50,742 nucleotides of DNA from a bacterium. Lineage in GTDB: Bacteria > JAHJDO01. The position numbers and the translations under genes were made by a program. Shown in pieces: positions 9,147 through 32,030 of this stretch. The DNA is taken from the NCBI GenBank assembly GCA_030611945.1, contig JAUWOV010000001.1, positions 1-50,742 on the forward strand, read 5' to 3'. The stretch's first letter is position 1, and the number at the start of each line of letters is the position of its first letter. The notes under the pieces are model-generated. The model made no database searches and had not been told where the DNA came from. It worked only from the letters and a program-made list of their open reading frames with translations.

Positions 9147-9149
9147 AGC

Positions 9150-9195
9150 GACTATTTTGCATTGTTTTTCGATAAAGTCAAGACTATTTTGCATT
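9150..9195. repeat. 14-bp direct repeats at the ATPase start
   Basis: GACTATTTTGCATT occurs at 9150-9163 and 9182-9195, a 32-bp period of about three helical turns. The copies bracket the putative -35 box (TTGACT on the minus strand) of the adjacent ATPase gene, so they may be binding sites for its regulator. Confidence 0.5.
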
Positions 9196-10534: not shown

Positions 10535-11566
10535 TTATAGTTTTATAATTGCCTTAATTGAATCTCCTTTTCTTGCTTTTTTAAATGCTTCTTCCCATTT
10601 ATCAAGAGTATATAAGTCTTTAGTAAATGGATTTAGATTCATCTTTTTATTTGAAACCATAGATAAACATCTTTCCCAGCTTAAATAATCAGAACTATAA
10701 CTAAAGAATATATTTACAGCTTTTAATATTAAGTTCATCCACGGCGCGTTTATTTTATCAGAACATAATCCTAATGCGCAAAATCTTCCATTTTTCCGTA
10801 TAATATCAAATCCCTGCATTATTCCATTAGGTGAACCGGACAGTTCAATAACAACATCTACTCCAATATTATTTGTTGAATCCATAATAATCTTTACAGG
10901 ATCTTCCTTTCTAACATTTATTACTCTATCTGCGCAAAAACGTTTTGCGGCCTTAAACCTTATTTTTTCATCAGCATTAATCCCAGTCATAAATACTTTT
11001 GATGCACCATTTGCTTTTACCATTTGTAGCGCAAGAAGCGCAATAGGCCCGCATCCAATAATAGCAACAACATCATCCAGTTGAATTTTTGTTTTTTCAA
11101 AAATAGCATATGCAGCAATAGCCATTGGTTCTATTAAACATGCTTCCTTATAGCTAACATTATCAGGTATTTTATGAATAAGTAAGGCAGGCATTGTTAT
11201 ATATTCGGCAAATGCACCATTAACTCCATAACCGGGCGCTTTCTTTTTTGAGCATAAATGCCGATTCCCTGTCATGCAATATCTGCAAGCACTGCATGCT
11301 TTAGTATGCTGCTCGCTGACTACCCTATCTCCATATTCCCAATTTTTAACTTTGCTGCCTGCTTTATCAATCACACCTGAAAATTCATGCCCTATAATAA
11401 CCGGAGGATTGTATGGAAACTTATCATCCATAATTTTTATATCCGTACCGCACACACTGGTATACTTTATTTTAATTCTAACTTCAGATTCGTCAGGTTC
11501 CGGCACGGGGACATCTCTTATTTCTAAAAACCCTTTACCTTTTTTATACTTAACTAAAGCTTTCAT
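10535..11566 (-). CDS. Zinc-dependent alcohol/polyol dehydrogenase (MDR family)
   Basis: The 343-residue medium-chain dehydrogenase has catalytic zinc ligands C39 (TSVCGTD), H60 and E61 (GHEFSGV), a four-cysteine structural zinc site (C91, C94, C97, C105), and a Rossmann fold with IIGCGPIALLAL near residue 170. Sorbitol, galactitol, threonine and (R,R)-butanediol dehydrogenases all belong here; sequence alone does not give the substrate. It is the last gene of the 20-kb minus-strand operon, 19 bp after an unknown mutarotase-like gene, so it probably oxidises or reduces a sugar-derived alcohol or an acetoin/butanediol-type compound in the cytoplasm. Confidence 0.85.
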   Translation of the reverse strand: MKALVKYKKGKGFLEIRDVPVPEPDESEVRIKIKYTSVCGTDIKIMDDKFPYNPPVIIGHEFSGVIDKAGSKVKNWEYGDRVVSEQHTKACSACRYCMTGNRHLCSKKKAPGYGVNGAFAEYITMPALLIHKIPDNVSYKEACLIEPMAIAAYAIFEKTKIQLDDVVAIIGCGPIALLALQMVKANGASKVFMTGINADEKIRFKAAKRFCADRVINVRKEDPVKIIMDSTNNIGVDVVIELSGSPNGIMQGFDIIRKNGRFCALGLCSDKINAPWMNLILKAVNIFFSYSSDYLSWERCLSMVSNKKMNLNPFTKDLYTLDKWEEAFKKARKGDSIKAIIKL

Positions 11567-11585
11567 AATTATTGTGTATAAATGT

Positions 11586-12596
11586 TTATTTATAATCCTC
11601 TATAATTTTATTTTTAATTTCTATAATTTCATTCTTATTGCCCATAAATGCCCATACTTCACTAATATCACTAATTTCGTTCCCTTTTTTCATAGATACT
11701 GCCGGACTATGATACTCCATTTCGCCAAAACCGCCGAGTTTACCGTCGTCTACATAAACCTGTTGAACATATCCTTTGTTATTTAAATCATCTACAGATA
11801 CATCATAATATTCTGATTCATCATATACAGAAAATTTTCTAACAATTATAAATGCTGGGTCATTATTCAAATTTTCATACAGCATAATGCCAAGGGAATT
11901 GTTTGCTTTTATTGAAAATTTAAAACTGGTTGATGTCTTTACTTCAGTTATAAGAGTGTTATTCCTTATATGATATTTTGATTTATTTATAAAATCTTTT
12001 GGTTTTACATTATGTCTGATAGGTATAATGATTTTTCCATTGCCCTGCACTTGTAGTATATTCCATATTGCCGGATTAACATTGTTTTTCCCATTGCCGG
12101 AATATTTTAATGATGATTTCATAATATATCCGGCATAACTACATTCATTAAATGGTTTAAAAGGAGGTTGACTGCAAAGTTCAATATTTTTTCGTATTGT
12201 AATATTAATATATTCCTTTATTCTATGAAACAACAGATTCATCTCTGTTTCAAAAACAACTTTATTTTTTTCTATTTTTAGTATTTTATATGCTGCAGGA
12301 TCCATTGATTTTTGTACATTATAAGTATCATTTGCTTTTTTACTATTATCGATATTAGTATCAACCTCAGGTGATATCCATGTGCGATCTCCTCCAATAT
12401 TTACCCAGCCTGGTTTTGTAAAAAACTCCTTTGAAGAATCTATAGACAAAATTCGGTTATTTACCCATAAAAGATTATTGATTTTATCAGGAGCAAGCCC
12501 TATAACACGCCCTCCAAAAGGTAGTATTAGTAATTTCTCATCCAGTAATACCATGCTTTGATTTATTTTTTTTAGTTTGTTAATTAATTCTTTCAT
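11586..12596 (-). CDS. Unknown protein, possibly mutarotase-like beta-sandwich
   Basis: The 336-residue cytoplasmic protein has no signal peptide and no catalytic motif I can name. It carries ILPFGGRVIGL (about 24-34) and GWVNIGGDRTWISPE (63-77), which resemble the N-terminal part of galactose-mutarotase-like domains of the DUF6786 kind that bind sugars. Beta-strand-rich segments continue to the end. It sits between an SMP-30 lactonase and a polyol dehydrogenase, so a role in sugar or sugar-lactone handling, such as epimerisation, is a reasonable guess. The assignment is inference from a weak motif and context. Confidence 0.45.
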   Translation of the reverse strand: MKELINKLKKINQSMVLLDEKLLILPFGGRVIGLAPDKINNLLWVNNRILSIDSSKEFFTKPGWVNIGGDRTWISPEVDTNIDNSKKANDTYNVQKSMDPAAYKILKIEKNKVVFETEMNLLFHRIKEYINITIRKNIELCSQPPFKPFNECSYAGYIMKSSLKYSGNGKNNVNPAIWNILQVQGNGKIIIPIRHNVKPKDFINKSKYHIRNNTLITEVKTSTSFKFSIKANNSLGIMLYENLNNDPAFIIVRKFSVYDESEYYDVSVDDLNNKGYVQQVYVDDGKLGGFGEMEYHSPAVSMKKGNEISDISEVWAFMGNKNEIIEIKNKIIEDYK

Positions 12597-12619
12597 TATA
12601 GCGTCTCTATTTACCTGAA

Positions 12620-13501
12620 TTATTTGCTAATAAACTCAAAACAGGGAAGCCCGCATATATTAGTCTTAAGACGAAACAGCCCTCCTGCATGAGGTTGATT
12701 TTTAATTTCATTCTCTTTTAATAAAAACGAAGCAGTAGTAATATATAACTCATTCAGGTTATCCCCTCCAAATGTACACGATGTTACATTTTGAACGGGA
12801 AGCTTTATGTATTCTAATAATTTCCTATTTAAAGGATCCCATCGTGATACACCCCAGCCTCCGAAAAGCGCAATCCAAAGCATTCCTTTTTCATCAATTG
12901 TCATTCCATCAGGATATCCCATTAATTCGGGTATTTTTATAACAGTTCTTTTATTTGCTATATCACCGCTTTTATTATCATAATCAAAAGATACTATCTC
13001 TCTTGTGGGAGTATCAATATAGTACATTTTTTTCTTATCAAGACTCCAGACTAAACCATTTGATACACTAACTCCGCTAAGCATTTTATGAAGTTTTAGA
13101 TCTTTACCAATTCTATATAAATTTGCATTTCCTGCTTTATTATCCATTGATAGAGAACCAACCCAAAAACGTCCGGATGGGTCACATTTACCGTCATTTG
13201 CTCTGTTTTCAGGAATATCTTCCTCAAAAGCAATTAATTTCTTCAATTCCTTTTTTTCAGTATTATATTCAGCTATACTATTTTCTAAGGCAAGTATTAG
13301 TTTCCCTTTTGATGCAGGGACGACTGTTCCTATACGTTCGCCAATATCATACGTTTTATTCTCTCTAGTTCCGGGATTATATATATGAAGTTCCCCTTTT
13401 TCTATATCTACCCAGTATAGAAATCTTTTTTTATAATCCCAGAATACTCCTTCTCCAAGATCCGCTTTGATATCTAATACCAATTCAATTTCTCTTTTCA
13501 T
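12620..13501 (-). CDS. SMP-30/gluconolactonase family lactonase
   Basis: The 293-residue protein is a six-bladed propeller of the SMP-30/LRE family. The metal ligands align well: E17 in LGEGVFWD, N148 in VSNGLVWS and D198 in GYPDGMTID, with substrate-contact R100 and N102 in ENRANDGKCDPSGRFW. These enzymes open sugar lactones (glucono-, galactono-, arabinono-lactone and others) using a divalent metal. Four bases separate it from the SDR gene upstream, so a dehydrogenase making a lactone followed by this lactonase is a plausible pair. There is no signal peptide; it is cytoplasmic. Confidence 0.9.
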   Translation of the reverse strand: MKREIELVLDIKADLGEGVFWDYKKRFLYWVDIEKGELHIYNPGTRENKTYDIGERIGTVVPASKGKLILALENSIAEYNTEKKELKKLIAFEEDIPENRANDGKCDPSGRFWVGSLSMDNKAGNANLYRIGKDLKLHKMLSGVSVSNGLVWSLDKKKMYYIDTPTREIVSFDYDNKSGDIANKRTVIKIPELMGYPDGMTIDEKGMLWIALFGGWGVSRWDPLNRKLLEYIKLPVQNVTSCTFGGDNLNELYITTASFLLKENEIKNQPHAGGLFRLKTNICGLPCFEFISK

Positions 13502-13504
13502 ATT

Positions 13505-14320
13505 TTATTTTCTATCCCCGCCTTCAAGGTTGCTTGATTTATAAGGCTCGCGGCTTATTAACTGGCTTGTCATACCGCCGTCAGCAAGAATATTGGTGCC
13601 GGTAATATAGCTTGCATCATCGCTGCAAAGAAAAACCGCTGTTTTGGCAATTTCTTCAGGATGGCCTACTCTACCCATAGGTATATTAGATTTCCAGAAT
13701 TTCATGCATTCTTCAATATTGGGAGCGGCATTTTTAATATCATCCCATATTTGTGTGTCAATGAGTCCGGGAGAAAGAGCATTTACACGGATATTTCTGT
13801 CTGCATACTCCACTGCCATTGATTTTGTTAAACCAACAATTCCCCACTTACCTGCATCATAAGGTGCTGCTCCTGGAAGGCATGCCTTTGTATGCACTGT
13901 AGTTATATTTAAAATACATCCTTTTTTTGCGTTTATCATATGAGGAATACAGTAATAAGAGCATAGATATGTGCCTCGCAAATCAGTATTAATTACACGG
14001 TCCCAATCTTTCGGCTCTGTTTTTTCAAAAGGCTTTACAAAATTTACTCCTGCATTATTTACAAGAATATCAATGCGCCCATTTTTTTCTATTACTTGTT
14101 GAACCATTCTTTTTACATCATCTTCTTTTGATACATCACATTTTATAAAAACTGCTTTACCTCCCTCTGCGCAGATCCCATTAACAACAGACTCTCCGTT
14201 ATCTCTGCTCCTTGAGCTTGCATAAACCATAGCGCCTTTTTTTGCAAAAGTTTTTGCTATGCTTTTCCCAATCCCCCTTCCTGTACCAGTTATAACCGCA
14301 ATTTTATCTTTTAACATCAT
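13505..14320 (-). CDS. Short-chain dehydrogenase/reductase
   Basis: The 271-residue classical SDR has TGTGRGIG (11-18), NNAG near residue 88, and Y154-x-x-x-K158 in PYDAGKWG. The catalytic Ser position (13 before Tyr) is Thr141, a tolerated variation. The tail after ILADGGMTSQ matches sugar/polyol dehydrogenases such as gluconate 5-dehydrogenase or acetoin reductase types. I start at ATG 14320 (MMLKDKIAV), because the longer ATG at 14335 would put AGGAGG inside the coding region; AGGAGG is 6 bases before 14320. The first bases of this gene are duplicated at 23474-23509. Confidence 0.9.
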   Translation of the reverse strand: MMLKDKIAVITGTGRGIGKSIAKTFAKKGAMVYASSRSRDNGESVVNGICAEGGKAVFIKCDVSKEDDVKRMVQQVIEKNGRIDILVNNAGVNFVKPFEKTEPKDWDRVINTDLRGTYLCSYYCIPHMINAKKGCILNITTVHTKACLPGAAPYDAGKWGIVGLTKSMAVEYADRNIRVNALSPGLIDTQIWDDIKNAAPNIEECMKFWKSNIPMGRVGHPEEIAKTAVFLCSDDASYITGTNILADGGMTSQLISREPYKSSNLEGGDRK

Positions 14321-14332
14321 AAAGCACCTCCT
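14297..14332 (-). repeat. Direct repeat, inner copy (RBS and start of the SDR gene)
   Basis: This 36-bp segment, read on the minus strand, runs from AGGAGG through ATGATGTTAAAAG to TGCG. It matches 23474-23509 with four differences, all transitions. Together the two copies bracket a 9.1-kb, five-gene module. Confidence 0.85.
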
Positions 14333-14405
14333 CATTTATAATTTGGTATTGTCAAAATATTATTAAAAATTAGATTGCCTCCCCCCCCTACCTCATATGT
14401 TCAGA

Positions 14406-16376
14406 TTATTTACCTGTTGAAATCCAGATCGGGCTTGACCATGCCATATGACCATCTGCCTGGGTAACCCGCATGTAATAATAAGTGTTTTTATTGAGCC
14501 GTTTTTTATCCACATACTCCAGAGTCACGGATTTTTCCCCCGGTTCTTCCGTATGAATATTCTGATTATTCCTGATGATCTCTACTTTTTCAAGTTTCTC
14601 CGTGCCTGATACTGATACTGATATTTTTATCGGCAATGCCGGATTGTCCACAGAGAATTCTTCTCCCATAAGATGTCCATTTAATTCAATATCTATAAGT
14701 ATTCTGGCACCTGTTGTGGCGTAACACCGCCGTTTTCTCAAGGCGTTGAATATTCCTTCTCTGCTCAATTCTTCAGTGATAACCGCTGTAAGGCCGCTTC
14801 GCTTGTATTTAAGAACAGGCGGAGGGTCTTCATTTGTCTTTAAATAACTGTTATGTTCGCTTAAGCGGGTGTCAATAGTTTCGTTCATCTCACTGCCCGG
14901 TCTTGAAATATGTGTATCTGAGCCGGCAGTAAATCCTAATTTGTATCCTCGCGCTAATGCATCCTGGACATAATTGCCTTTCTCTGTTTTATAAAGAGGG
15001 TAGGGGCATCCATAGTATTCCGAGCATCCATGTTTGGAATATATCTCCACCAACATTTCCATCTCTTCGTCATGATGATTCCAGTCAGTGCCCGGCACAG
15101 CCCATCCTATCGGATAACCTGGATGATGCGGAATCGTGATAGCGTTTTCTTTTTCCGATAATGTCTTCCAGAGTTTTTCCGGGGTATCCGCCTCTTTTCT
15201 GTAATGATGGTAAAGAGGTCTCCCATCGGAAGAATAATACACATTCTTATGTCCGAAATTTTTGTCGGGTGTAGAGCCAATGCCAGGCAGTGTCCATTCA
15301 TTCCCTAACAGCGTGACGAATTTTCCACACTCGTTATACCTGAACGTAGTATACGAGATAATGCTCCAGGCAGTCTCATTATTTTGCCAAAAACTGTCTA
15401 TCGGCAATTTGAACTTACCCAGTCCTCCGCATACGGCGTTTCTATTTGAAGAGACAAGATAAGAGGCATGGTCAGCTATAGCGCAAAAGTCCAGATTTTC
15501 CACATCCCGACCATACTGATAATAATAGTCCGGACTCTCCAGGCCATCAGAAAGAAAGGTGTGTCCGTGTATTTCTCCCCAATAGACATTGTGTTCTTTA
15601 TCATCTTCCCTGCATTGGACGGGATTGCTGGCAGCGACAAGATTATTCCCGGTATCTTTGGCTGTTATAGTGTGCAGTCCCGGAGAATTAAAAACAGCAT
15701 CAAATCTGTGTTTACCCTTATCATTTGGTATAAAAGCGTAATCTTCAGGTAATCGAACGTTTTTATCACTGCTCACAAAACTTACCCTGCCGGTATATCC
15801 AGACGCGGGATTCCCGAATCTGTCAAAAGCCCTTAAAACAAAGCTGAACGGTAATCTTGCTTTCGGGGTGGAATCCGCCACAAGGCTTAGCTGGACAGCC
15901 TTATCCGAAATCACATCCAGTCGGGAAATATCTTCCAGTCTCTCGTATTCATCATTGCCATACTGGTCTATCCAAACATTAAAAAGGACATTATGTGTAA
16001 AAGGCTTCATTGTATGCCCGGGGCATCTGCTCGTCCGATCTCCAAAGATGACAGTGACGGCATCGCCTTCTTTCAGGCAGCCATCTTCAATTTTTAGCTC
16101 AACACCCTTAAACATTATAGTGTCAACACAATTCAAAGAAACCGCGGCAACGCCTGAAATCTTAGCGCTAAGATATTCCGCTTTATCCGGATGGTCTGTT
16201 TGAGGGGGATACATGCATTCTCTCCCGTAAGCCATTATTCTTATTTTACCACCAGCATGAACCTCCTCTGACAGTGTTATTTTGATCTGCCAAGTTATTT
16301 GCCTGCCAACAATAGCGGGTTCCTTGCCCAAAATGGAAACCTTGCTGAATTTTATTTTTTTGCTTTCTAATGACAT
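14406..16376 (-). CDS. DUF3604 protein with PHP-like metal site (copy A)
   Basis: The 656-residue protein has beta-rich N-terminal domains (to about 255) followed by a PHP-like core. Likely metal ligands: H270 and H272 in GEIHGHTFLSDG, D302 and H303 in IADHASY, the HHPGYPIGW histidines, and D and H in AGSDTHISRPG. The C-terminus is a beta-sandwich ending in the QADGHMAWSSPIWIS signature. DUF3604 has no established reaction; PHP folds are usually metal-dependent phosphoesterases. There is no signal peptide, so it should be cytoplasmic. It is a clear paralogue of the next gene upstream. Overall composition is less AT-rich than the SDR block. Confidence 0.85.
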   Translation of the reverse strand: MSLESKKIKFSKVSILGKEPAIVGRQITWQIKITLSEEVHAGGKIRIMAYGRECMYPPQTDHPDKAEYLSAKISGVAAVSLNCVDTIMFKGVELKIEDGCLKEGDAVTVIFGDRTSRCPGHTMKPFTHNVLFNVWIDQYGNDEYERLEDISRLDVISDKAVQLSLVADSTPKARLPFSFVLRAFDRFGNPASGYTGRVSFVSSDKNVRLPEDYAFIPNDKGKHRFDAVFNSPGLHTITAKDTGNNLVAASNPVQCREDDKEHNVYWGEIHGHTFLSDGLESPDYYYQYGRDVENLDFCAIADHASYLVSSNRNAVCGGLGKFKLPIDSFWQNNETAWSIISYTTFRYNECGKFVTLLGNEWTLPGIGSTPDKNFGHKNVYYSSDGRPLYHHYRKEADTPEKLWKTLSEKENAITIPHHPGYPIGWAVPGTDWNHHDEEMEMLVEIYSKHGCSEYYGCPYPLYKTEKGNYVQDALARGYKLGFTAGSDTHISRPGSEMNETIDTRLSEHNSYLKTNEDPPPVLKYKRSGLTAVITEELSREGIFNALRKRRCYATTGARILIDIELNGHLMGEEFSVDNPALPIKISVSVSGTEKLEKVEIIRNNQNIHTEEPGEKSVTLEYVDKKRLNKNTYYYMRVTQADGHMAWSSPIWISTGK

Positions 16377-16474
16377 TTTTATTTCTCCTGTTTCTATTTC
16401 ATCCTCTTTTTATAAAACACATTCAACACAATCTGTGACTGTCTTTGAATAATTTCTTTAAATTTTGCAAATCT

Positions 16475-18433
16475 TCACTGTACCCAGATAGGACTTGCCC
16501 AGGCCAGATGACCATCTTCCTGTGTTACCCTTATATAGTAAAAAAGAATTCGGCGTTGATTCACAGTATTTGACAGAGAAATATTCGCAATATTTTCACT
16601 ATCAATATATTCAACTTCCTCTATCTCACTTTTCCCTCTATAAGTGTGAATATCAATATTGTTTCTCACAATATCAATCTTTTTAATCTTTGCTGTTCCT
16701 GCCACTTTTACCTGAATCTTCCTCTTTTTATTATTTCCCCCTTCATTTGCTTTTGTTGTTTCACCCATCATGTGCCCGTTTAATTTAAACTCCAAAATTA
16801 TTCTCGCCCCTGTAGTTGCATAACAACGTCTGTTCATCATCGCGTCGAAAATTGCCTCTCTGGTCAGATTTTTAGCGAGAAACGCGGTGAGTCCGCTTCG
16901 GCGGCATCTAAGTATGTCCTGTGCGTCTGCGCCGGGACGTGACCAATGTGTATCCGAACCAGCTGTAAAGCCTAACTTGTATCCGCGGGCTAAAGCTTCC
17001 TGGACAAAACCGCCTGGCTTATATCCGCCAACCGGATTTGGGTTGCCACAATACTCACTCGCACCCCATAATGAGTATATTTCCACCAACCTTTCTATAT
17101 CCTCGTCATGATGTGTCCAATCAGCTCCAGAGACAATTCTCTTAAGATAGCATGGCGGTTCCGGATTTACAGGTAAAGAGGTATGATGCGAAATTGTTAC
17201 GGCTTGTTTGTTTTTTAATAAGTTCCAGAGCCTTTCAGGAGTATTGCTTTCCCGGTTAATATGAGAGTACATAGGCTCGTCATCAGATAGATAATAAACA
17301 TTTTTATGGCCAAAAGCCATGCCTTCCGGAGTATAACCATGCCCTGATGTCCATTCATATCCCAGTAAAGTTGTAAATTTCCCCGGTTTATTAAATCTGT
17401 CTGTTTCATATTTAATTATTGCCCAGGCATCTGTTGGATTTGACCAGAACGGTGTTACTTGAGGCTCATCAATATTCTGTGTTGTTTCTGTTTCAATTCT
17501 TCCCTCGATTAATCTGCCGCCGGACATGTGTGTATCATGATCAGTAATGGCACAAACATCCAATCTTGATACATCACGACCGTAGCGATAGTAAGAATCA
17601 GGTGTTTTTAAACCGTCGCTCATTAATGTCTGCCCGTGTATTTCTCCCCAGTAAATCTTGTAATGAAGTTCCTGTTTCGCAATCTCAATTATGTTGGATT
17701 TTCCTGATAGATTGGTTTTTTTATCAACAACTTCGATTTGTTCTAACCCCGGAGTATTCGCTTTTGCTTCAAATAGATGAAGTCCTTTATCTTTATTAGT
17801 AAAAGTGTATTTTTCTGGCAAAATCATGCCGACATTGCCGAAAAACTCCACAACCCCTCTGTAGGAAACAGATACATTACCGTACTCGTCTACAGCTTTG
17901 ATATGAAGGCAGAATGGTTTGTCAACCACACCCTGTGAAGGAACCAAGGCAATCAGTTTAACAGGTTTATCAGATATATATTCCAACTGTGGCGGATTTG
18001 CTAATTTAACATAGTTCCGTGAACCATCAATGTCTACCCGGAAAATTACTCTGTGTTTGTGAGAAACCTGTTTTACATAAAACTTTTCCGCATTTGCCCC
18101 AAACATGACAGTGATAGTATCTCCTTCCAAAAGAGCCGCCTCTGACACAACAACCGAAAGGCTGCAAACACACATAGGATTTCTAACTCTACCAACTGGA
18201 ATATTTACACAGGCTTTTTTTGATGATGTCTCTGCCTCGACATATCCTTCTTTGTCTGGATCAGTAGTCTGAATAGGGCCAAAAGCGCCTCTATGGAGAA
18301 CCGCAAGTTTTATCCCGCCTCCTGTTCCAATTCCTGATTTTCCAACCTTGTACACAAGACAAAATGCCGCCTTAGTCCCAACAACCAATTTTTCAGGAAG
18401 AAACACAGCACTCCCGAATTTATTCATATTCAT
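16475..18433 (-). CDS. DUF3604 protein with PHP-like metal site (copy B)
   Basis: The 652-residue protein parallels copy A throughout: N-terminal beta domains, YWGEIHGQTLMSDG, AITDHDTH, VTISHHTS, LARGYKLGFTAGSDTHWSRPG, RRCYATTGARI, and a C-terminus VTQEDGHLAWASPIW. The first metal motif is HGQ here but HGH in copy A; HGQ is common in DUF3604, so copy A is the variant. The two copies may act on different substrates. No signal peptide is visible. The start has AAGGAGAATC upstream on the minus strand. It lies 23 bp after the glycosidase-like gene B. Confidence 0.85.
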   Translation of the reverse strand: MNMNKFGSAVFLPEKLVVGTKAAFCLVYKVGKSGIGTGGGIKLAVLHRGAFGPIQTTDPDKEGYVEAETSSKKACVNIPVGRVRNPMCVCSLSVVVSEAALLEGDTITVMFGANAEKFYVKQVSHKHRVIFRVDIDGSRNYVKLANPPQLEYISDKPVKLIALVPSQGVVDKPFCLHIKAVDEYGNVSVSYRGVVEFFGNVGMILPEKYTFTNKDKGLHLFEAKANTPGLEQIEVVDKKTNLSGKSNIIEIAKQELHYKIYWGEIHGQTLMSDGLKTPDSYYRYGRDVSRLDVCAITDHDTHMSGGRLIEGRIETETTQNIDEPQVTPFWSNPTDAWAIIKYETDRFNKPGKFTTLLGYEWTSGHGYTPEGMAFGHKNVYYLSDDEPMYSHINRESNTPERLWNLLKNKQAVTISHHTSLPVNPEPPCYLKRIVSGADWTHHDEDIERLVEIYSLWGASEYCGNPNPVGGYKPGGFVQEALARGYKLGFTAGSDTHWSRPGADAQDILRCRRSGLTAFLAKNLTREAIFDAMMNRRCYATTGARIILEFKLNGHMMGETTKANEGGNNKKRKIQVKVAGTAKIKKIDIVRNNIDIHTYRGKSEIEEVEYIDSENIANISLSNTVNQRRILFYYIRVTQEDGHLAWASPIWVQ

Positions 18434-18456
18434 AGTAAGATTCTCCTTATGTTTTT

Positions 18457-20136
18457 CTATGATTTCTTTGCCAAATCAATGATTTTTCTAATACTCTTCA
18501 TACCTAAATCCACACTTCTATCAGCCAAAACAATTGTTGGAATAATCGTTTGATTAAACATTTTTTTGTTGTATTGAACTGTTTTTTTTACATCTTTTAT
18601 CTTTTTAACGGGTTTCTTCATGCTTATAATAGGCTTAATCGGCCAAACTCCTGTGGTTCCATCCGGAGACGGAGTTATCAAGTGAGCATAGGTTCTCAAA
18701 TAACGTTGATAAAGGTAGTCGGCCACAGGGTGGTATTTTTTGTCTCCGTTTACCGGTAAATTATGAACAAACGGCGTAAAGGGAATCATCAATTCTGATA
18801 TGCCTTCTCCGCCAATCAATATATTTGGATGTCTTTTCTTTAATTCACTAAATAAAAGACACGCTCCCTTATAGTAATTATGATGCGGGTCATTGAAAAA
18901 TCCGGATGAAGTATCCAGATGAAGAGCATCCACACCATACTCTTCTACAAGGATGTTCATCTTCTTTATAAAATATTCCCGCCATTGCCGGCTGTCGGGC
19001 GACACAATGGCAAGGACTATCTCATTGGTGCCATCTGAATCATAATCACATCGCCAGTATTGTAAGTCACCGGCGCTGTTGCGGGTAGAATGTTCCTTTA
19101 CTATTTTTTCAATAAGAGGCTTGTTTTTTCTCGTAATGCTAACCATTTGATGATTTACATGAGGCATTATTTTATAACCAAGTTTATGAGCAGCGGCAAT
19201 CATTTGTCTGAATCCCTTTTCCCCGCCCATTACATTGTCCGGGTCAGGCTCATAATCCGGGTAGGTAAGGTCGTATGGACCGCACCAGCCAGGGATATAA
19301 ACAAGTGTTCTCTCAGGCGGAAAAAGGCGTGAAAGTTCTTGTAACCTCTCGCTCATCTCCGAAAAAGTGTGATGCGTCTCGCCAAGATATCCCTGCCCGT
19401 GAAGATTCACTACTAAACCAATCTTCTTTGCCCAATCAGGAACGTCTCTCCGTTTAATGAAAGAAACAATGTTAAAGGTTTCCTCAAGCCAAGCAGCATG
19501 GCTGTCCACTGCCTCTTTCCAGTTTTTCACTTTCTTTACACAGCAGGGTTCGGTTGCAAGTGTCTTTTTTCTTTCCCAGGCATTAGCTTCAGTAGTAAAA
19601 ACCATCTTTAAAAAATTATCCTGCCGATAAAAGGTATATCGCAAAATACGGGGCGGATATTGTTTGGTGCTGACGGAATAGCTGTCTTTGCTACCTTCAA
19701 TTACAATAAACTGTGCATTCAATCCATTTGTAGGCGTATTACCACCACTATTAAAAGGATAAATGTAACTGATTAATTCGCCATTTGTTAAAGAACGCTC
19801 CGAGCCTCCAACCAATCCTGTATCAGGAGCTATTATCTTCCCCAGCGGCAAAGGAGAAACATAAACCTGAATACTTTTAATCAATTCAAAATGTCTTGCT
19901 TGCGCCTGCCAATCAAAATCAAATCCATTTTTTATTATTGTTATCTGACAACAACAGCCGGAACCAGCAGATCTGCCATCCGCGTAAACGAATTTTTCCG
20001 TTGCTGCGGTTATTCTGTTTTTTGACTTTTCTTTAACTTTAAAGTCAACTGCCTGATATACTGTCTTATCCGTAATGATTGCTATTTGAAACTCTAATTT
20101 ATCAAAAACTAAAACCTTAGTGAGATCCTGTATCAT
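18457..20136 (-). CDS. Glycosidase-like TIM-barrel protein, DUF6259-like (copy B)
   Basis: The 559-residue protein has a beta-rich N-terminal half and a probable (beta/alpha)8 barrel from about residue 235. YGVDALHLDTSSGFFND carries a candidate nucleophile Asp on strand 4, and ILIGGEGISELM a candidate acid/base Glu on the following strand; LGYKIMPHVNHQ lies earlier in the barrel. The pattern resembles DUF6259 and related retaining glycoside hydrolases. Substrate unknown. No signal peptide, so it would act on imported sugar. It has a paralogue immediately upstream. N-terminal CCC and C-rich stretches are unusual but not diagnostic. Confidence 0.6.
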   Translation of the reverse strand: MIQDLTKVLVFDKLEFQIAIITDKTVYQAVDFKVKEKSKNRITAATEKFVYADGRSAGSGCCCQITIIKNGFDFDWQAQARHFELIKSIQVYVSPLPLGKIIAPDTGLVGGSERSLTNGELISYIYPFNSGGNTPTNGLNAQFIVIEGSKDSYSVSTKQYPPRILRYTFYRQDNFLKMVFTTEANAWERKKTLATEPCCVKKVKNWKEAVDSHAAWLEETFNIVSFIKRRDVPDWAKKIGLVVNLHGQGYLGETHHTFSEMSERLQELSRLFPPERTLVYIPGWCGPYDLTYPDYEPDPDNVMGGEKGFRQMIAAAHKLGYKIMPHVNHQMVSITRKNKPLIEKIVKEHSTRNSAGDLQYWRCDYDSDGTNEIVLAIVSPDSRQWREYFIKKMNILVEEYGVDALHLDTSSGFFNDPHHNYYKGACLLFSELKKRHPNILIGGEGISELMIPFTPFVHNLPVNGDKKYHPVADYLYQRYLRTYAHLITPSPDGTTGVWPIKPIISMKKPVKKIKDVKKTVQYNKKMFNQTIIPTIVLADRSVDLGMKSIRKIIDLAKKS

Positions 20137-20206
20137 TTTAATCGCTCCTTTTTATAATTTTAAGTTGTCATCTCCGGCAAATGATGTAAAGAATGTTTGG
20201 TTTCAT

Positions 20207-21829
20207 CTATTTCTCCTCTCTTATGGCTTGGTTTTGTAATTCCTTTATTTCCTTCTCTGAATCACTGTCAATTCCATAATCTTTATAGTTAATTCTTAAC
20301 GTCTTAATTACATTATGCTTGTCTCCGTGAGACTGTCCCATCTTAAACGCATTCTTAATTCCGTACTTCACAATGAATGGATAGTTTGTCCAGATATATC
20401 TTGCCGGAACCGCAGCGGGAATTCCGAGGTGAGCAAAGAAATAAGCATAGTCATCATAAAGAAGTGTATTTATAGGCGAATCTTTTTCATAAAGAATTTC
20501 TTCCAAACCCACCCAGGGGGGACCCCAGAATTGGCAAAAAGGAGTAACTGAAGCAACACGCTCATTTATGGATTCACCTCCGATCAGAACGTCAGGCAGT
20601 CTTTTTCTGATTTCATTAAGGAGCGTTTTAATCCCATTTTCAAAGTTGCATTGCAGATCATTGATTATGTTACAGGATTGATCCAAAAATATAGCATCAA
20701 GATTAAATTCTTTAACCACTTTTTCAATCTTTTTGATTAGATACTCTCTCCATTTTTTAGCGCAGGGACGTATGTGGGAAAAAGGGAACCCGAAACCACC
20801 TGTAGGTGTTACTCCAATCCAACCTGCTTTTTGTCCTGAAGGACCTGTTGCCTGATATTTCTTGAACTTTGCGAAATCAGGATGATTACGATTAAATCCA
20901 AAAAGATTCATATCAGGCATAATCCTGAATCCATATCGGTGAATTGTCTCGATCATCTCTCTAAATTTACCAATGCCTCCCAACTCTTTCACAGGCCAAT
21001 ATTCGGGAATTATTGAGTTTAGCCTACCATACCATCCCCAGGGATTAATAACTGTTTCTTCGGGAACTCCAATTTTTTTCAACTCACCGACCATATCAAT
21101 CACATCCTGATAATCGTGGGCTATTTCACCTGTGGCACGCCACATGTCTATGACTAATACCAACCGAGTCTTACGAGCCCATTTGGGTACATCTGAATTA
21201 TCCTCTTTCTTTTTTAGATTAAAAACGCCTTCCATCCATTTTTTGTAATCATCTATTCCCTCATCCAAAGAATTAAAAACATCAAGAGACACATTAGGGG
21301 CATTATATTCTTTAGGAAACGGGGCCTTGGGCTGCATCTCCCATTTTAGAGTAAAACCGTGCTCTTCTCTTAAAATTTGTACCGAAGGAAAATAAAGCTT
21401 CTTTGTTTTTGTTCCTATTCTGATCCAACTGCCAGAAATATTAACCATAACAAACTGGGCGCTTAAACCCCATGGAAAGCCGCCATTCCACTCTTCGCCA
21501 ACCGGCATATCTTTATCAAGCAATATAGACTTTCCCGGGATATGGAACTGAGCATCTTCCGGCAAAGATATACTTATCCCCACTTTATTGATTTCTTTTT
21601 TAGAGCTTGCCTCAATTCCAAATTCTATTTCTTTTCCATTATACATATGCAAAAATCCTGAGGCGCTTTTGGTTTTAAGCGAAATGGTTACCTTCTCTTT
21701 GTTTTCCTCTGTTTTTGTTATTTCTGCTAATTCCCCATGCAGAAAAACCTTAACAGCTGTTACGGGTAATTTCCCTTGTCTCTTTGTTAGATCAACGTTA
21801 ATACAATTTTTCTTTGATTTTCCTATCAT
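20207..21829 (-). CDS. Glycosidase-like TIM-barrel protein, DUF6259-like (copy A)
   Basis: The 540-residue protein has the same architecture as its downstream neighbour. After a beta-rich N-terminus, the barrel carries YGFRIMPDMNLFG, FNLDAIFLDQSCNIIND with the candidate catalytic Asp, and PDVLIGGESINERV with a candidate Glu. The pair (18457-20136 and 20207-21829) looks like an old tandem duplication with divergence in substrate pockets (LDQSC against LDTSS). No signal peptide. The substrate cannot be given. It could be a glycosidase acting on an intracellular oligosaccharide that is later oxidised by the downstream enzymes. Confidence 0.6.
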   Translation of the reverse strand: MIGKSKKNCINVDLTKRQGKLPVTAVKVFLHGELAEITKTEENKEKVTISLKTKSASGFLHMYNGKEIEFGIEASSKKEINKVGISISLPEDAQFHIPGKSILLDKDMPVGEEWNGGFPWGLSAQFVMVNISGSWIRIGTKTKKLYFPSVQILREEHGFTLKWEMQPKAPFPKEYNAPNVSLDVFNSLDEGIDDYKKWMEGVFNLKKKEDNSDVPKWARKTRLVLVIDMWRATGEIAHDYQDVIDMVGELKKIGVPEETVINPWGWYGRLNSIIPEYWPVKELGGIGKFREMIETIHRYGFRIMPDMNLFGFNRNHPDFAKFKKYQATGPSGQKAGWIGVTPTGGFGFPFSHIRPCAKKWREYLIKKIEKVVKEFNLDAIFLDQSCNIINDLQCNFENGIKTLLNEIRKRLPDVLIGGESINERVASVTPFCQFWGPPWVGLEEILYEKDSPINTLLYDDYAYFFAHLGIPAAVPARYIWTNYPFIVKYGIKNAFKMGQSHGDKHNVIKTLRINYKDYGIDSDSEKEIKELQNQAIREEK

Positions 21830-21871
21830 GTCTTTTTCCCTTTCATTTGTAACAGATTAGAGTTTACTTTT

Positions 21872-23383
21872 TTAATATTCAGTGGTTTTACGTTCCTGTT
21901 TGCTTATTTCCTGAAAATCATCCGACCACTCCATTAAATACACAGCGGATTCAGCCGTACAGCCAAACCAGCATTCATAAGCGTCACCATGATGATTTGC
22001 CTGAGGAATGTCAAAACGATGGTCAACACCAAAGGTTGCCATTCTTCCATCCTCTTGCTGAAACCTGACCATGGTATTGGCTCCTGCAATGGCCTTGTGT
22101 AAATATTCTAACTTCCCAGTTGCTTTATACAGGTCCCTTAACAGCAGAACCCACTCGCCTGTATGAAAATCCATAGCCCAGTAACAGGCGTATTGCTCAA
22201 GGATGCTCGGATAATACGGCTGATAAGGAAGCGCAGGCTCCGGACCAAAAACAACAAACTGGTCTTCAATCCAACGATTAAGCCTTTGTGCTATTTTTAG
22301 ATAATCCGCGTTTTCTTCTTGATGTTTTATAAGATAGCGCGCGGTAGCAATAGCGTCACAAGGTTCAAGATTCTTAAATGGCTTCATATTAGGAATATCC
22401 TCGAACATTCCCTGCCATAGATGTGTTTTTACCGGGTTTTCAAGAATCCATTGAACAGCCTTTTCACGAGATTGCAGGTACTCGCTTCCGCCTGTTAAAT
22501 TATCAAGTTCCTCAAACAAAAGAACGGGAAATATTGCTGCTGAGGTATATTCTGCCACGACTTCTCCTGTTTCAGGATTTACTCGATAGGGCCAGCTTCC
22601 ATCGGGTCTCTGGTGTTTCTGTAAGACACCGGCAATATGCCGGGCATACTCCAGATACTTCTCTTGTTTTGTCGAATTAAACAGATGGATTATTGCCCTG
22701 CCAAGCAGTGCACTGCGAAAAAGGGTGATGGATTTACCCTCGCACCCGCCGCTGAATTCACCCTTTGAAATAGTGGAATAAGGCAGAAGAGGGAGAGCGT
22801 AGTTTTCAGGAAGCCTGTTTTCCAACAGCCAATCGCCCAGTTGAATGGCTCTTTTTAATAAATCGTCTCGTTGAATGGCATTATCTGTCCGCCGCGCGTA
22901 ACGCAAAAACGCGTTTATTATACCCGTATAGTTTAAACCAGGATATGATGCATGATAAGGCTTTCCGTTTATCTCAGCACAATGCCATATATAAGCAGGC
23001 AAGGAAGGATCGTAATTATCAGGATGTTCGTAGGAGGTCAAAAATTTTATTATCTTTTGGGTGCAGTTTCTATAATCTAAAGGATCTTGTTTTTTCCCGT
23101 CAAAGTCCGGGGATTTACTGAAACTGAATGTGCCGCCATAATCTATCATCTTGCTTTCGTCATCCAATGCTTTTATACACCACTGAATTGTTCCGCATTC
23201 TAAACTATTCCAAATTTCAGCAAAAGCAAATTCAGGCTTTGTGACTTTAAAAGAAATTGCCGGCTTCATGCCTGAGGCAACCATAATTTCATACTCTTTG
23301 ACCCATTTAATCGACCCCCAGCTAAATACCGGAGCATCAATAAACCTTATTGCATATTTATTCCAACTATTTAAAAAAATCAT
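21872..23383 (-). CDS. Alpha/alpha-toroid carbohydrate-active protein, unknown
   Basis: The 503-residue protein has an N-terminal beta-rich part and, from about residue 120, repeated helical hairpins typical of six-hairpin glycosidases and C5-epimerase-like proteins: LLKRAIQLGDWLLENRL, YLEYARHIAGVLQKHQRPDGSWP, YLKIAQRLNRWIEDQF, YLHKAIAGANTMVRFQQEDGRM. The QRPDGSWPYR motif is common in this superfamily. I cannot assign a specific GH or PL family. No signal peptide. It is the first gene of the 9.1-kb module, just downstream of the recombination scar at 23413-23509. Confidence 0.6.
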   Translation of the reverse strand: MIFLNSWNKYAIRFIDAPVFSWGSIKWVKEYEIMVASGMKPAISFKVTKPEFAFAEIWNSLECGTIQWCIKALDDESKMIDYGGTFSFSKSPDFDGKKQDPLDYRNCTQKIIKFLTSYEHPDNYDPSLPAYIWHCAEINGKPYHASYPGLNYTGIINAFLRYARRTDNAIQRDDLLKRAIQLGDWLLENRLPENYALPLLPYSTISKGEFSGGCEGKSITLFRSALLGRAIIHLFNSTKQEKYLEYARHIAGVLQKHQRPDGSWPYRVNPETGEVVAEYTSAAIFPVLLFEELDNLTGGSEYLQSREKAVQWILENPVKTHLWQGMFEDIPNMKPFKNLEPCDAIATARYLIKHQEENADYLKIAQRLNRWIEDQFVVFGPEPALPYQPYYPSILEQYACYWAMDFHTGEWVLLLRDLYKATGKLEYLHKAIAGANTMVRFQQEDGRMATFGVDHRFDIPQANHHGDAYECWFGCTAESAVYLMEWSDDFQEISKQERKTTEY

Positions 23384-23412
23384 AGTTAACCTCTCCTATT
23401 CTGGTTAGATTA

Positions 23413-23477
23413 TCAACTAACTGAAATCCATATAGGACTTGACCATGCCATATGACCATCTTCCTGAAGGACTCGCA
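23413..23477 (-). pseudogene. 3' end of a lost third DUF3604 gene
   Basis: Read on the minus strand, this stretch encodes LRVLQEDGHMAWSSPIWIS and a TGA stop (23415-23413). That is the C-terminal signature of the two DUF3604 genes at 14406 and 16475, yet no DUF3604 body lies upstream; the sequence joins directly to a copy of the SDR gene start. It is close to, but not identical with, either complete gene, so a third paralogue was present. Similarity to the copy A end continues past the stop. Confidence 0.85.
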
Positions 23478-23509
23478 GTTTCACCTTTTAACATCATAAA
23501 GCGCCTCCT
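23474..23509 (-). repeat. Direct repeat, outer copy (SDR start relic at the end of the E2 gene)
   Basis: The 36-bp segment matches 14297-14332 with four transitions. It contains AGGAGG inside the last codons of the E2 gene and ATGATGTTAAAAG overlapping the E2 stop (TGATG). After TGCG the sequence turns into the DUF3604 relic. The junction TGCG is shared by both partners, suggesting a microhomology event. Confidence 0.85.
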
Positions 23510-24645
23510 GTTTTCATTTCAGACAGTTCTTTTACACGTTTTAAAAAAGCAGCAGCTGGCGCACCATCAATTATTCTATGATCATAGGTTAAACAAAGTG
23601 TAGCTATTGGTCTAATACATACCTCGTCATTTATAGCAACCACCTGTTTCTTAATAGCCCCTATTGCTAATATTGCGCTTTGAGGAGGATTAATAATTGC
23701 AGTAAATTCATCCAGATCATACATGCCGAGATTTGAAATTGTAAAGGTTCCACTGCTAAAATCTGCTATTCCCAAACTGCCATTGCGAGCTTTTTTAATT
23801 AAATTTTTTGATTTATTACTAATCTCTTCCAAGCTTAATGTTTCAGCATTATGAACAACAGGGACAAATAAACCATTATCCACAGCAACAGCAAAACCAA
23901 TATTTGCATAATGTTTTAAAATTATCCTATCATTTTCCAAGGTAGAATTTAATATTGGATTTTCAAGTAAAGCTTTTGAACAAATTTTAATAAATATATC
24001 ATTATACGAAATATTTATATTGGATTTTTTTAAACTTTCACGAAGATTAATAATTGAATTCATGTTGATACTAATTTTGTGGTAAGCCTGAGCATAAGTA
24101 TTTTGGCTTTCAATCATTCGCTCAGCAATAGTTTTTCTTATGCCCTTAAAAGCAAGAAAGCTTTCTTTATTTAAAAGAGATGGTGTAATGTTTTTCTCAA
24201 TTATTAATCCATTAGGGCCAGTGCCTGTTATGTTTGAAAAATTTATTTTATTGTCTATTGCCAATTTTTTTGCTCGTGGTGTTATAAATATCCTTCCATT
24301 GCTATTTTGTGGCATTGAACTTTTTAAAGTATTTTCTATAACTGCGTTTTTAGTGTCAGGTTTGCTCTCTGAAATAGGTTCAGTATCATATTTGGAAATA
24401 TCATCCGTATCCGCTCCTATCAATCCAATTACTTTTGAGACTGCAACGGTTTCACCTTCATCATGTATCTTCTTTAATAATTTTCCATCCCCTTGCGCTT
24501 CAATTTCAAGCGCTGCTTTATCTGTCTCAATTTCAATAATTGCTTCTCCGTTTTTAACATCATCTCCAACATTCTTTAACCATTTAGTAATTGCGCCTTC
24601 AGTCATCTGAAGACCCTGTTTTGGCATTATTATTTCTGTTATCAT
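23494..24645 (-). CDS. E2 component, dihydrolipoamide acyltransferase (acetoin/2-oxoacid dehydrogenase type)
   Basis: The 383-residue protein has one N-terminal lipoyl domain with lipoylated K43 in EIETDKAALEIEA, a linker, a peripheral subunit-binding domain (about 120-155, ITPRAKKLAIDN and GTGPNGLI), and a catalytic domain with the active-site DHRIIDGAPAAAF near the C-terminus. E2 receives the acyl group from E1 and passes it to CoA. It is encoded with E1beta and E1alpha upstream at 9-bp gaps. No E3 (lipoamide dehydrogenase) is in the window, so E3 is shared or lies elsewhere. Its last codons contain a ribosome binding site for a gene that is now absent. Confidence 0.92.
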   Translation of the reverse strand: MITEIIMPKQGLQMTEGAITKWLKNVGDDVKNGEAIIEIETDKAALEIEAQGDGKLLKKIHDEGETVAVSKVIGLIGADTDDISKYDTEPISESKPDTKNAVIENTLKSSMPQNSNGRIFITPRAKKLAIDNKINFSNITGTGPNGLIIEKNITPSLLNKESFLAFKGIRKTIAERMIESQNTYAQAYHKISINMNSIINLRESLKKSNINISYNDIFIKICSKALLENPILNSTLENDRIILKHYANIGFAVAVDNGLFVPVVHNAETLSLEEISNKSKNLIKKARNGSLGIADFSSGTFTISNLGMYDLDEFTAIINPPQSAILAIGAIKKQVVAINDEVCIRPIATLCLTYDHRIIDGAPAAAFLKRVKELSEMKTGGAL

Positions 24646-24654
24646 TTTGTCTTT

Positions 24655-25638
24655 CTAAGATATATACAATGTCTTTTTAACTGCTTTTGAAATATCTTCC
24701 TGCTGTGGCACAACTGCATTTTCCAGACCGAGATTAAATGGCAAAGTACAATGTTTTGCTCCAAGCCTTAAAACGGGAGCATCCAGATATTCAAAGGCTT
24801 CTTCCATAATAGTAGCTGCAATCTCTGCTCCCCAGCCTGCTATCTTGTGAGCTTCATGAACAATAATTGCTCTGCCTGTTTTTTTTACGGATTTAATAAT
24901 TGTTGTTTTATCAAAAGGTATTAATGTTCTGGGATCAATTATCTCAATATCAATATTTTTTTTTGCTAGTTTTTCTGCTTCATTTAGCGCTTTTTGTACA
25001 TATAAATGACTGCAAATTACAGTTGCGTCTTTCCCTTCACGTATAATATTTGCTTTCCCAAAAGGTATGCTGTATTCCGGATCATCAGGAACTTCACCTT
25101 TTGTTGCATATAAAGCTTTATGTTCAAAAAACATTACCGGATTATCATCTCGTATAGCGGTTCTTAAAAGCCCCGCTGCCTCACTAGGGGAAGATGGCAT
25201 AACAACTTTTACTCCGGGTATATGCATAAACAATGATTCAACTGATTGAGAATGCTGACCGGCATTACCTCTGCCTATTCCCTGCTGACCACGAATCACC
25301 ATTGGAATTTTTACATTGCCGCCAAACATATATCTGATCTTTGCTGCCTGATTTAATATCTGATCCATTGCCAGATACGCAAAATCCATATACATCAGCT
25401 CAACTATTGGGCGAAGTCCGCATGAAGCAGCTCCAACCCCAGCTCCTACAAAACCGGCTTCCGATATAGGAGTATTTCTAACTCTTTCGCTCCCAAACTC
25501 TTTCAAAAGCCCTTTTGTACATGTAAAAATTCCTCCCGCCTCTGCAATATCTTCACCCATAATAAATACAGCATCGTCTTTTCTCATTTCTTCCGCAATA
25601 ACATCTTTAATTGCCTGAGAATATGTTTTTATACTCAT
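24655..25638 (-). CDS. E1 beta subunit (acetoin/2-oxoacid dehydrogenase)
   Basis: The 327-residue protein is a typical E1beta: MGEDIAEAGGIF, TPISEAGFVGAGVGAA, and YMDFAYLAMDQILNQAAKIRYM, then a transketolase C-terminal domain (VIDPRTLIPFD-type block, here IIDPRTLIPFDK). It contributes the glutamate activating thiamine diphosphate and binds E2. It resembles the acetoin dehydrogenase beta subunit (AcoB) as well as pyruvate dehydrogenase beta. Nine bases separate it from both neighbours, so it belongs to a tight E1alpha-E1beta-E2 unit. Confidence 0.92.
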   Translation of the reverse strand: MSIKTYSQAIKDVIAEEMRKDDAVFIMGEDIAEAGGIFTCTKGLLKEFGSERVRNTPISEAGFVGAGVGAASCGLRPIVELMYMDFAYLAMDQILNQAAKIRYMFGGNVKIPMVIRGQQGIGRGNAGQHSQSVESLFMHIPGVKVVMPSSPSEAAGLLRTAIRDDNPVMFFEHKALYATKGEVPDDPEYSIPFGKANIIREGKDATVICSHLYVQKALNEAEKLAKKNIDIEIIDPRTLIPFDKTTIIKSVKKTGRAIIVHEAHKIAGWGAEIAATIMEEAFEYLDAPVLRLGAKHCTLPFNLGLENAVVPQQEDISKAVKKTLYIS

Positions 25639-25647
25639 TATTTTCTC

Positions 25648-26619
25648 CTAAAAATTCACTATATCTGTAAATACATTCTCCATAACTGTGCTTGGATCAG
25701 GTTCAGGACTATTGATTGCAAACTCAACTGCATCATCCGCTTCTTTATCAATAACCTTTTCTATTTCATCAAGTTCATTTTTAGATAGTTCTTTTTCGTC
25801 CAGAAAGTATTTTTTTAATGTCTTAATAGGACATTTTTCTTTCCATGCTTCTACTTCATCTTTTGTTCTATATAATTGAGGATCTCCTATCCAATGACCA
25901 AACCAACGATATGTTTTGCACTCAATCAATGTTGGTCCTTCGCCTTTTTTAGCGCGGGCTATGGCTTCTTCCATTACCTTATTTATTTCAAAAACATCAT
26001 TCCCATTTACTGTATGACCAGGGATATCATATGATTTTGACCGCACACTAATATCTTTTACTGAAGTGCTTTGTTTTACCGGTACTGAAATGCCGAATTC
26101 ATTATTTTCACAGACAAAAATTATTGGTAATTTCCAGATAGCGGCAAGATTTATACCTTCATGAAATGTTCCCTGATTTGATGCTCCATCCCCAAAAAAA
26201 GATACTGTTACCTGATCAGTTTTTTTTATAGAAGCAGCTAATGCGCCGCCAACTGCTATTGGTATTCCTCCTCCTACAATTGCATTTGCGCCAAGATTCC
26301 CTTTGCTCATATCAACAATATGCATTGATCCGCCACGGCCTTTACAAAAACCAGTTTCTTTTCCCATAAGTTCAGCCATAGCTTTTTTAAGGTCTCCGCC
26401 CTTTGCAATACAATGTCCATGCCCTCTATGTGTGCTTGTTATGTAATCCGTATCTCTAAGCAGGGAACATACTGTTGCCGCAATTGCTTCCTCTCCTATA
26501 TACAGATGTACTGAACCTCTGAGCTTATCACTTTCAAACAAGCTTAATGCCCGCTCCTCGAATTTTCTTATTCGAAGCATCGTTTTGTATATCCATATTA
26601 AACGCTCTTTATCTATCAT
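25648..26619 (-). CDS. E1 alpha subunit (acetoin/2-oxoacid dehydrogenase)
   Basis: The 323-residue thiamine-diphosphate enzyme has GHGHCIAKG, the GRGGSMHI and GNLGANAIVGGGIPIAVG blocks, and the TPP/Mg motif from FFGDGASNQG to VCENN. The pattern is closest to acetoin dehydrogenase alpha (AcoA) in my judgement. It would decarboxylate a 2-oxoacid or cleave acetoin and load the acyl group onto E2. I start at ATG 26619 (MIDKERLIW) with GCAGGAGAT 6 bases upstream; a longer frame from 26685 overlaps the sucD-like gene and starts with a non-family extension. Confidence 0.92.
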   Translation of the reverse strand: MIDKERLIWIYKTMLRIRKFEERALSLFESDKLRGSVHLYIGEEAIAATVCSLLRDTDYITSTHRGHGHCIAKGGDLKKAMAELMGKETGFCKGRGGSMHIVDMSKGNLGANAIVGGGIPIAVGGALAASIKKTDQVTVSFFGDGASNQGTFHEGINLAAIWKLPIIFVCENNEFGISVPVKQSTSVKDISVRSKSYDIPGHTVNGNDVFEINKVMEEAIARAKKGEGPTLIECKTYRWFGHWIGDPQLYRTKDEVEAWKEKCPIKTLKKYFLDEKELSKNELDEIEKVIDKEADDAVEFAINSPEPDPSTVMENVFTDIVNF

Positions 26620-26635
26620 CTTATATCTCCTGCTT

Positions 26636-27505
26636 TTAAAGTAATCTTTTGCAAATATCAACAATATCCATAGCGCTTTCTGCAATATGTACTCCGGCTT
26701 CTCTTAATTTATCTTCTTTATTTTCTGCGCTGCCTGTACCATCCGATGCGACGATTGCTCCTGCATGTCCCATGCTTCTTTCTTTTGGTGCATTCTTTCC
26801 TGCTATTAAAGAAACGCATGGTTTTGTTATATGCTTTTTAATGTGATCAGCTGCTTTTTCTTCTTCTATTCCTCCAATCTCACCGATCAATACAATGACT
26901 TTTGTCTGATCATCTTTCTGATAAAATGGCAACAGTTCAGAAAACGTTGACCCTGGTATCATATCTCCGCCAATACCAATACATGTTGACTGCCCGATAT
27001 TGCTGTTAGTCATCATAAAAACAGTCTCATAACAATTGGTTGCGCTTCTTGACATGATTCCTACATTTCCTTTTGAAAAAATTCTATGCGCCATAAAACC
27101 CGCTTTTGCTTTTCCGGGGGATATAATGCCAAATGAATTCGGTCCTATAACTCTGGAAACGGAATATTTTAATAGATTTTTTATCTTCATCATATCGTGT
27201 ACAGGAACATGTTCTGCAACTGTTATTATTTGAGGAATGTCTGCATCAATCGCCTCAAGTATAGCTTGGTATGTAAATAATGGCGGAACAAATAAAACAG
27301 TTGTATCTGCTCCGGTATCTTCAAAGGCTTCTTTTACAGTATCGTATACAGGAACACCATGAACGGTTTCTCCGCCTCTTCCTGGCGTTACACCCGCTGC
27401 AATATTTGATCTATACTCCAGCATTTGTTTAGTATGAAAACTTCCCTCTCTTCCTGTAATTCCCTGTACAATTATTTTTGAATTTTCATCTATTAAAATA
27501 CTCAT
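26636..27505 (-). CDS. SucD-like alpha subunit of an ADP-forming acyl-CoA ligase
   Basis: The 289-residue protein has the CoA-binding Rossmann part (VQGITGREGSFHTKQM, GRGGETVHGVPVYDTV) and the ligase part with the phosphorylated histidine H247 in SMGHAGAIV. Succinyl-CoA synthetase normally reads GPNCPGIITPG; here it is GPNSFGIISPGKAKAGF (121-137), so the CoA/acyl pocket departs from the succinate enzyme. With SucC it would convert acyl-CoA plus ADP and phosphate to acid plus ATP. Operon partners (acylating aldehyde dehydrogenase, E1/E2) suggest an acetyl-CoA or other acyl-CoA substrate. It overlaps sucC by 4 bases. Confidence 0.9.
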   Translation of the reverse strand: MSILIDENSKIIVQGITGREGSFHTKQMLEYRSNIAAGVTPGRGGETVHGVPVYDTVKEAFEDTGADTTVLFVPPLFTYQAILEAIDADIPQIITVAEHVPVHDMMKIKNLLKYSVSRVIGPNSFGIISPGKAKAGFMAHRIFSKGNVGIMSRSATNCYETVFMMTNSNIGQSTCIGIGGDMIPGSTFSELLPFYQKDDQTKVIVLIGEIGGIEEEKAADHIKKHITKPCVSLIAGKNAPKERSMGHAGAIVASDGTGSAENKEDKLREAGVHIAESAMDIVDICKRLL

Positions 27506-28647: not shown

Positions 28648-28650
28648 TTA

Positions 28651-31973: not shown

Positions 31974-32022
31974 TGGACAATTTGTAAATTCAATTGACAA
32001 ACTGTCCAAAGCATGTTATTGT
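31974..32022 (+). promoter_or_regulatory. Promoter and dyad upstream of the second DUF4143 ATPase
   Basis: TTGACA (31994-31999), 17 bp and TATTGT (32017-32022) form a promoter ending 8 bases before ATG 32031. A dyad with 12-bp arms and one mismatch, TGGACAATTTGT (31974-31985) and ACAAACTGTCCA (31997-32008), overlaps the -35 box and looks like an operator. A TGGACAA half site also occurs on the minus strand upstream of the first ATPase. Confidence 0.6.
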
Positions 32023-32030
32023 TTTTTGTC

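Follow-up and report, generated by a model that had tools for sequence, protein, structure and literature searches.

Gene order is usually the sole basis for inferring that genes were inserted into an operon. Mosaic operons, in the description of Omelchenko et al. 2003 as cited in PMC3599248, hold genes of another origin inside an operon and in its direction of transcription, and genes of other origin also lie co-directionally within an operon in piecewise operon growth (reviewed in PMC10138114). The locus described here is like both, but differs in still showing the joint, where a start is duplicated and a gene end is cut. It also resembles target-site duplication by illegitimate recombination or template switching, having short terminal direct repeats, a 4-bp microhomology at the join, and no recombinase found; it differs in that the insert begins inside a gene and shows no element ends of its own and in that the duplication is 36 bp long and diverged. 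A further likeness concerns the enzymes. The operon encodes an acylating aldehyde dehydrogenase together with a SucCD-like ligase, as in the pairs of acylating aldehyde dehydrogenase and ADP-forming ligase SauS/SauCD or SqwD/SqwKL (PMC12890257); the dehydrogenase matches the SauS model at E 4e-123, which is under the curated cut-off. Here, however, the pair is joined to E1/E2, and membership of those systems is not claimed.

The window, by which we mean the whole stretch of 50,742 nucleotides analyzed (contig JAUWOV010000001.1 of assembly GCA_030611945.1), contains a run of 16 genes, all 16 co-directional (Table 1). Seven of them (GntR to E2) form the core, five the module, and four (SDR, SGL, DUF6786, and ADH) the tail, and we infer that all 16 are likely transcribed together as one transcript. 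The module genes are those that the original prediction had described between two direct repeats, encoding an all-alpha GH47-like protein (M1), two DUF6259 proteins, and two DUF3604 proteins. The products are probable glycoside-acting enzymes and two metallohydrolase-like DUF3604 proteins; the predicted structures of M1 and DUF6259, with mean pLDDT of 47 and 44, were too poor for fold searches. Plausibly, the module gives the sugar-oxidation operon access to more substrates. Upstream of GntR lies a tartrate dehydrogenase gene (TTC model above cut-off), which was probably acquired separately because its GC3 is 0.48, against 0.20 to 0.26 in the operon after it. Two divergently oriented AAA_14-DUF4143 ATPase genes lie on either side of the operon region. 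Nothing marks them as the ends of a mobile unit, since they share only 29% identity with one another and the genome has several further, similarly distant copies.

Table 1. Features of the operon, its module, and the two joins (positions in the window)
Feature	Positions	Strand	Description
Older operon, upstream part	23494..30704	-	GntR, acylating aldehyde dehydrogenase, SucC-like, SucD-like, E1a, E1b, E2
E2	23494-24645	-	
Outer repeat copy	23474..23509	-	Last bases TGCG common to the DUF3604 vestige
26-codon remnant ORF	23417..23497	-	MMLKGETASPSGRWSYGMVKSYMDFS; start overlaps the E2 stop
DUF3604 vestige	23391..23477	-	Last codons plus about 32 nt of DUF3604a-like 3' flank
Module gene 1 (M1)	21872..23383	-	503 aa, mostly helical; weak similarity to GH47/GH76/AGE-type toroid
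Module gene 2	20207..21829	-	DUF6259; weak similarity to GH66
Module gene 3	18457..20136	-	DUF6259; 26% identical to gene 2
Module gene 4 (DUF3604b)	16475..18433	-	
Module gene 5 (DUF3604a)	14406..16376	-	CehA/McbA-type metallohydrolase domain; about 40-44% identical to DUF3604b
DUF3604a/SDR spacer	14336..14405	-	70 nt; right end of the insert
Run of eight G	14381-14388	-	In the spacer
Inner repeat copy	14297..14332	-	SDR Shine-Dalgarno, start, and first codons; in use
SDR	13505-14335	-	
Older operon, downstream part	10535..14335	-	SDR, SMP-30/gluconolactonase (SGL), DUF6786, zinc alcohol dehydrogenase (ADH)
Tartrate dehydrogenase	30797-31852	-	Upstream of GntR
AAA_14-DUF4143 ATPase	8025-9194	-	Flanks the operon region
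AAA_14-DUF4143 ATPase	32013-33227	+	Flanks the operon region

Alignment confirmed the two repeats at the positions predicted for them, with 32 of 36 bases identical (about 89%) and four differences, all transitions (C/T, G/A, G/A, and C/T); the longest exact run shared is 18 bp. Each copy contains AGGAGG, ATGATGTTAAAAG, and the next SDR codons, and the outer copy lies inside the end of E2, as had also been proposed, overlapping its last 16 bases so that the E2 stop and the copied SDR start overlap as TGATG. Between positions 12000 and 26000, the real sequence has three pairs of 36-mers that match at 32 or more of 36 positions, this repeat and two pairs from DUF3604 tails, and dinucleotide-preserving shuffles (n = 3) have none. 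In the whole genome (1.66 Mb, 119 contigs), the 36-bp element has two copies only, both at this locus (second E 1.7e-6). A common dispersed element, which the prediction itself had named as the finding that would speak against it, is rejected as the source of the repeat since the genome holds no third copy.

The description of the module as flanked by direct repeats is correct for the repeats and incomplete for the outer flank, which is a composite scar of an SDR start and a DUF3604 end. Immediately 3' of the outer repeat copy, a DUF3604 vestige encodes QEDGHMAWSSPIWIS, and its best-matching core (23423-23467) agrees with DUF3604a at 41 of 45 nucleotides. The last codons match DUF3604b at 35 of 39 bases. 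Because QEDGHMAWSSPIWIS is conserved across the DUF3604 family, the coding match alone does not name the source of the vestige. The next 32 bases, past the vestige stop, match the DUF3604a flank at 18 positions and the DUF3604b flank at 8, and the DUF3604a-like flank exceeds chance (shuffle p about 0.001). A two-source fit places the break between SDR and DUF3604 within TGCG, which is common to both sources and falls at SDR codons 7-8 and in the DUF3604 tail; the left end of the insert lies inside that tail. The parts of the outer join follow each other as E2 end, SDR start, DUF3604 end, and M1, and those of the inner join as DUF3604a end and SDR start, so both parts of the scar have intact counterparts at the inner join, in reversed order. 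On this succession of parts, a third DUF3604 gene must have stood before M1 at the insert's place of origin. The SDR start behind E2 now opens the 26-codon remnant frame. In the spacer behind DUF3604a, eight consecutive G residues may be prone to slippage or to assembly error. We rejected an M1 leader remnant in this spacer, as the resemblance to the M1 leader is weak (global p about 0.03, local not significant). Counts of promoter and terminator motifs at the joins were near chance.

We measured composition at the fourfold-degenerate sites of the seven core, four tail, and five module genes. Core and tail agree (A.414/.413, C.112/.112, G.120/.116, T.354/.359; p 0.53), whereas the module differs from these flanks (A.273, C.188, G.196, T.343; chi-square p 1e-16), and all five module genes exceed all 11 flanking genes in fourfold-site GC (Mann-Whitney p 2.3e-4). 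Relative to 219 genes on other contigs of the same genome, the core falls at percentiles 0 to 24, the tail at 5 to 11, and the module at 44 to 99. Core and tail form a single block that is unusually AT-rich by the standard of this genome; the module is ordinary and looks resident. In codon usage, each of the four tail genes is better described by the core model than by the module model. DUF3604b favors neither, which counts against the insertion reading, and the composition difference could in part be a gene-class effect. A resident DUF3604 cluster on another contig (C61) has a composition similar to that of the module. That locus (L061, G000 C61, 193-15013) encodes GH42, sugar-isomerase-like and ceramidase-like proteins, three sulfatases, and a 923-aa DUF3604 protein. 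Since core and tail are identical in composition and the module is different, the module would be younger than the E2-SDR junction. As in mosaic operons, it has a history differing from that of its neighbors inside a co-directional operon, and the composition breaks at both joins.

The end of E2 is consistent with an old junction. E2 stops 22 aa after the active-site motif, which is the median tail length of 49 homologues. This typical length makes it probable that the stop is native, and with it the predicted TGATG coupling to the start of SDR. A proline present in the tail of 46 of the 49 homologues is absent here, which is also compatible with replacement of the tail by SDR leader sequence.

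The claim that the module was added to an older E2-SDR operon thus agrees with the equal fourfold sites of core and tail and the differing module, but no relative with orthologous E2 and SDR joined directly was found among the genus members and the core-operon loci. In the genus members, orthologues of E2, SDR, and the SucD-like gene were not found, and the whole operon is missing. Scanning genome contigs with E1b located the core in a Mageeibacillus-like genome, at 71%, and a search of that genome's order yielded three more core operons, four in all. These nearest core operons (E1b 70-72%) are distant; they keep the order GntR-Aldh-SucC-SucD-E1a-E1b-E2 where the sequence covers it and have neither SDR nor module after E2. 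Their E2-like protein (L153-L156) has lipoyl and E3-binding domains without the catalytic domain, and these short E2 genes adjoin intact E1 genes, unlike the complete E2 of the window. Since these operons stop at a short E2 and have no SDR, the pairing of E2 with SDR could be confined to the present lineage. Among 80 E1b loci, SDR directly follows E2 in one (L080), and the same order occurs in another genome (G019), both with distant sequences. M1 has matches in 5 of 384 other genomes, at 27-36% identity; near the M1 homologue in four of these five, we found no DUF3604 or DUF6259 like those of the module. A genome scan with DUF3604a found no relatives, and M1 and DUF6786 were not found in plasmids (no match for M1 in 72,556). 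At the cut-offs used, DUF6786 had no hit in 391 genomes from the class of genome G385 and SDR none in 31 genomes from its order, sets without a positive control in which an absence is weak evidence.

We consider the locus best explained by one old illegitimate insertion of the module into an E2-SDR operon with a 36-bp target duplication, and we put the probability of this at roughly 0.6; that it was a single event in this direction is what we infer from the parts. The ancestor would have been an AT-rich catabolic operon (GntR-aldehyde dehydrogenase-SucCD-like-E1a-E1b-E2-SDR-gluconolactonase-DUF6786-ADH) with the E2 stop overlapping the SDR start, and its joint would be expected to read ...GGAGG(C/T)GCTTTATGATGTTAAAAG... 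without the module. The insert would have been 9.1 kb taken from a carbohydrate-processing gene cluster, with one cut falling just within the tail of a third DUF3604 gene, located in front of M1. Illegitimate recombination or template switching at the SDR start would have made the left join through TGCG, common to SDR codons 7-8 and the DUF3604 tail, and synthesis would then have returned to the operon 36 bp upstream, in the end of E2, duplicating the SDR ribosome-binding site and start. Because both were duplicated, a working start would have remained for SDR; the end of E2 and the ribosome-binding site of M1 would have been preserved, and the 26-codon remnant would be what became of the old SDR start behind E2. 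The distant E2-SDR adjacency elsewhere, the nearest core operons without the module, and the resident DUF3604 cluster of similar composition support insertion. Against it, the ancestral joint of orthologous E2 and SDR occurs in no genome found, the TGCG microhomology is just 4 bp, and a transposase, of which none was found, would not usually duplicate 36 bp of its target.

The same order of parts at both joins is predicted by relocation through tandem duplication and loss, which we rate as unlikely. In this scheme the module would have begun further downstream within the operon (E2-SDR-...-DUF3604x-M1-...-DUF3604a). DUF3604a would have come to precede a second SDR by tandem duplication, everything from the first SDR to DUF3604x would have been deleted at TGCG, and the second copy of the module would have disappeared. 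This accounts for the outer order SDR start, DUF3604 end, M1, for the inner order DUF3604a, SDR, and for a microhomology deletion join, but it needs three events, the module composition is unlike that of all other operon genes, and no DUF3604 or M1 trace follows ADH. We find it improbable that two operons were joined, with module-SDR-SGL-DUF6786-ADH put behind an E2-terminated core, a stray SDR-start/DUF3604-end fragment caught, and the E2 tail overwritten. The lack of SDR after E2 in the four core-operon relatives and the E2 tail without the conserved proline would suit this, and a random join gives the TGATG overlap in one of three frames; however, the tail genes share their composition with the core and not with the module, and the length of the E2 tail is exactly the homologue median. 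If a circle carrying one module and an SDR start joined to a DUF3604 end had integrated at the SDR start by homologous recombination (Campbell type), exactly the observed order would result. We regard this as very doubtful, since the circle must already carry that start, 36 bp offers very little homology, neither an integrase nor a replication gene was identified among the module genes, and M1 lacks a plasmid match. Chance, or selection for similar translation starts, can draw on AGGAGG and ATG as common motifs but has hardly any standing, as the match extends past the start into codons 2-8, pairs at 32/36 are absent from the shuffles, and the composite scar, with its DUF3604 vestige directly beside the repeat, contradicts it.

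The inserted module was also predicted to be open to loss again, and for this the analysis finds no support. The 36-bp repeats, at 89% identity and 9.1 kb apart, make a poor excision substrate; with 18 bp as the longest identity and no recombinase gene identified in the module, loss at any notable rate appears unlikely. Greater distance between repeats sharply lowers RecA-independent recombination in E. coli and B. subtilis, and in Deinococcus mismatches reduce it via MutS (PMC4627823). We saw no sign of continuing movement of the module: no transposase, integrase, or recombinase was identified among its five genes, and the genome has no further copies of the 36-bp element beyond the two at this locus. 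The window contains no tRNA gene, and tRNA-associated insertion was rejected for this reason.

It would be a long shot to generalize from this locus to a recombinase-free way of operon building, in which carbohydrate-processing arrays pass pieces into unrelated operons via microhomology at translation-start regions, duplicating the next gene's start each time so that the neighbors stay expressed. Five probable carbohydrate-processing genes seem to have been inserted as a block into the middle of an older sugar-oxidation operon, and a short scar composed of the ends of two broken genes marks the site. The locus is a well-preserved example of a known way of bacterial operon growth, in which the joint can be read base by base and duplicated start, cut gene end, microhomology, and composition break agree. 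The exact junctions are given here for a search in related strains, and the locus illustrates the entry of five genes into an operon without loss of the next gene's own start.
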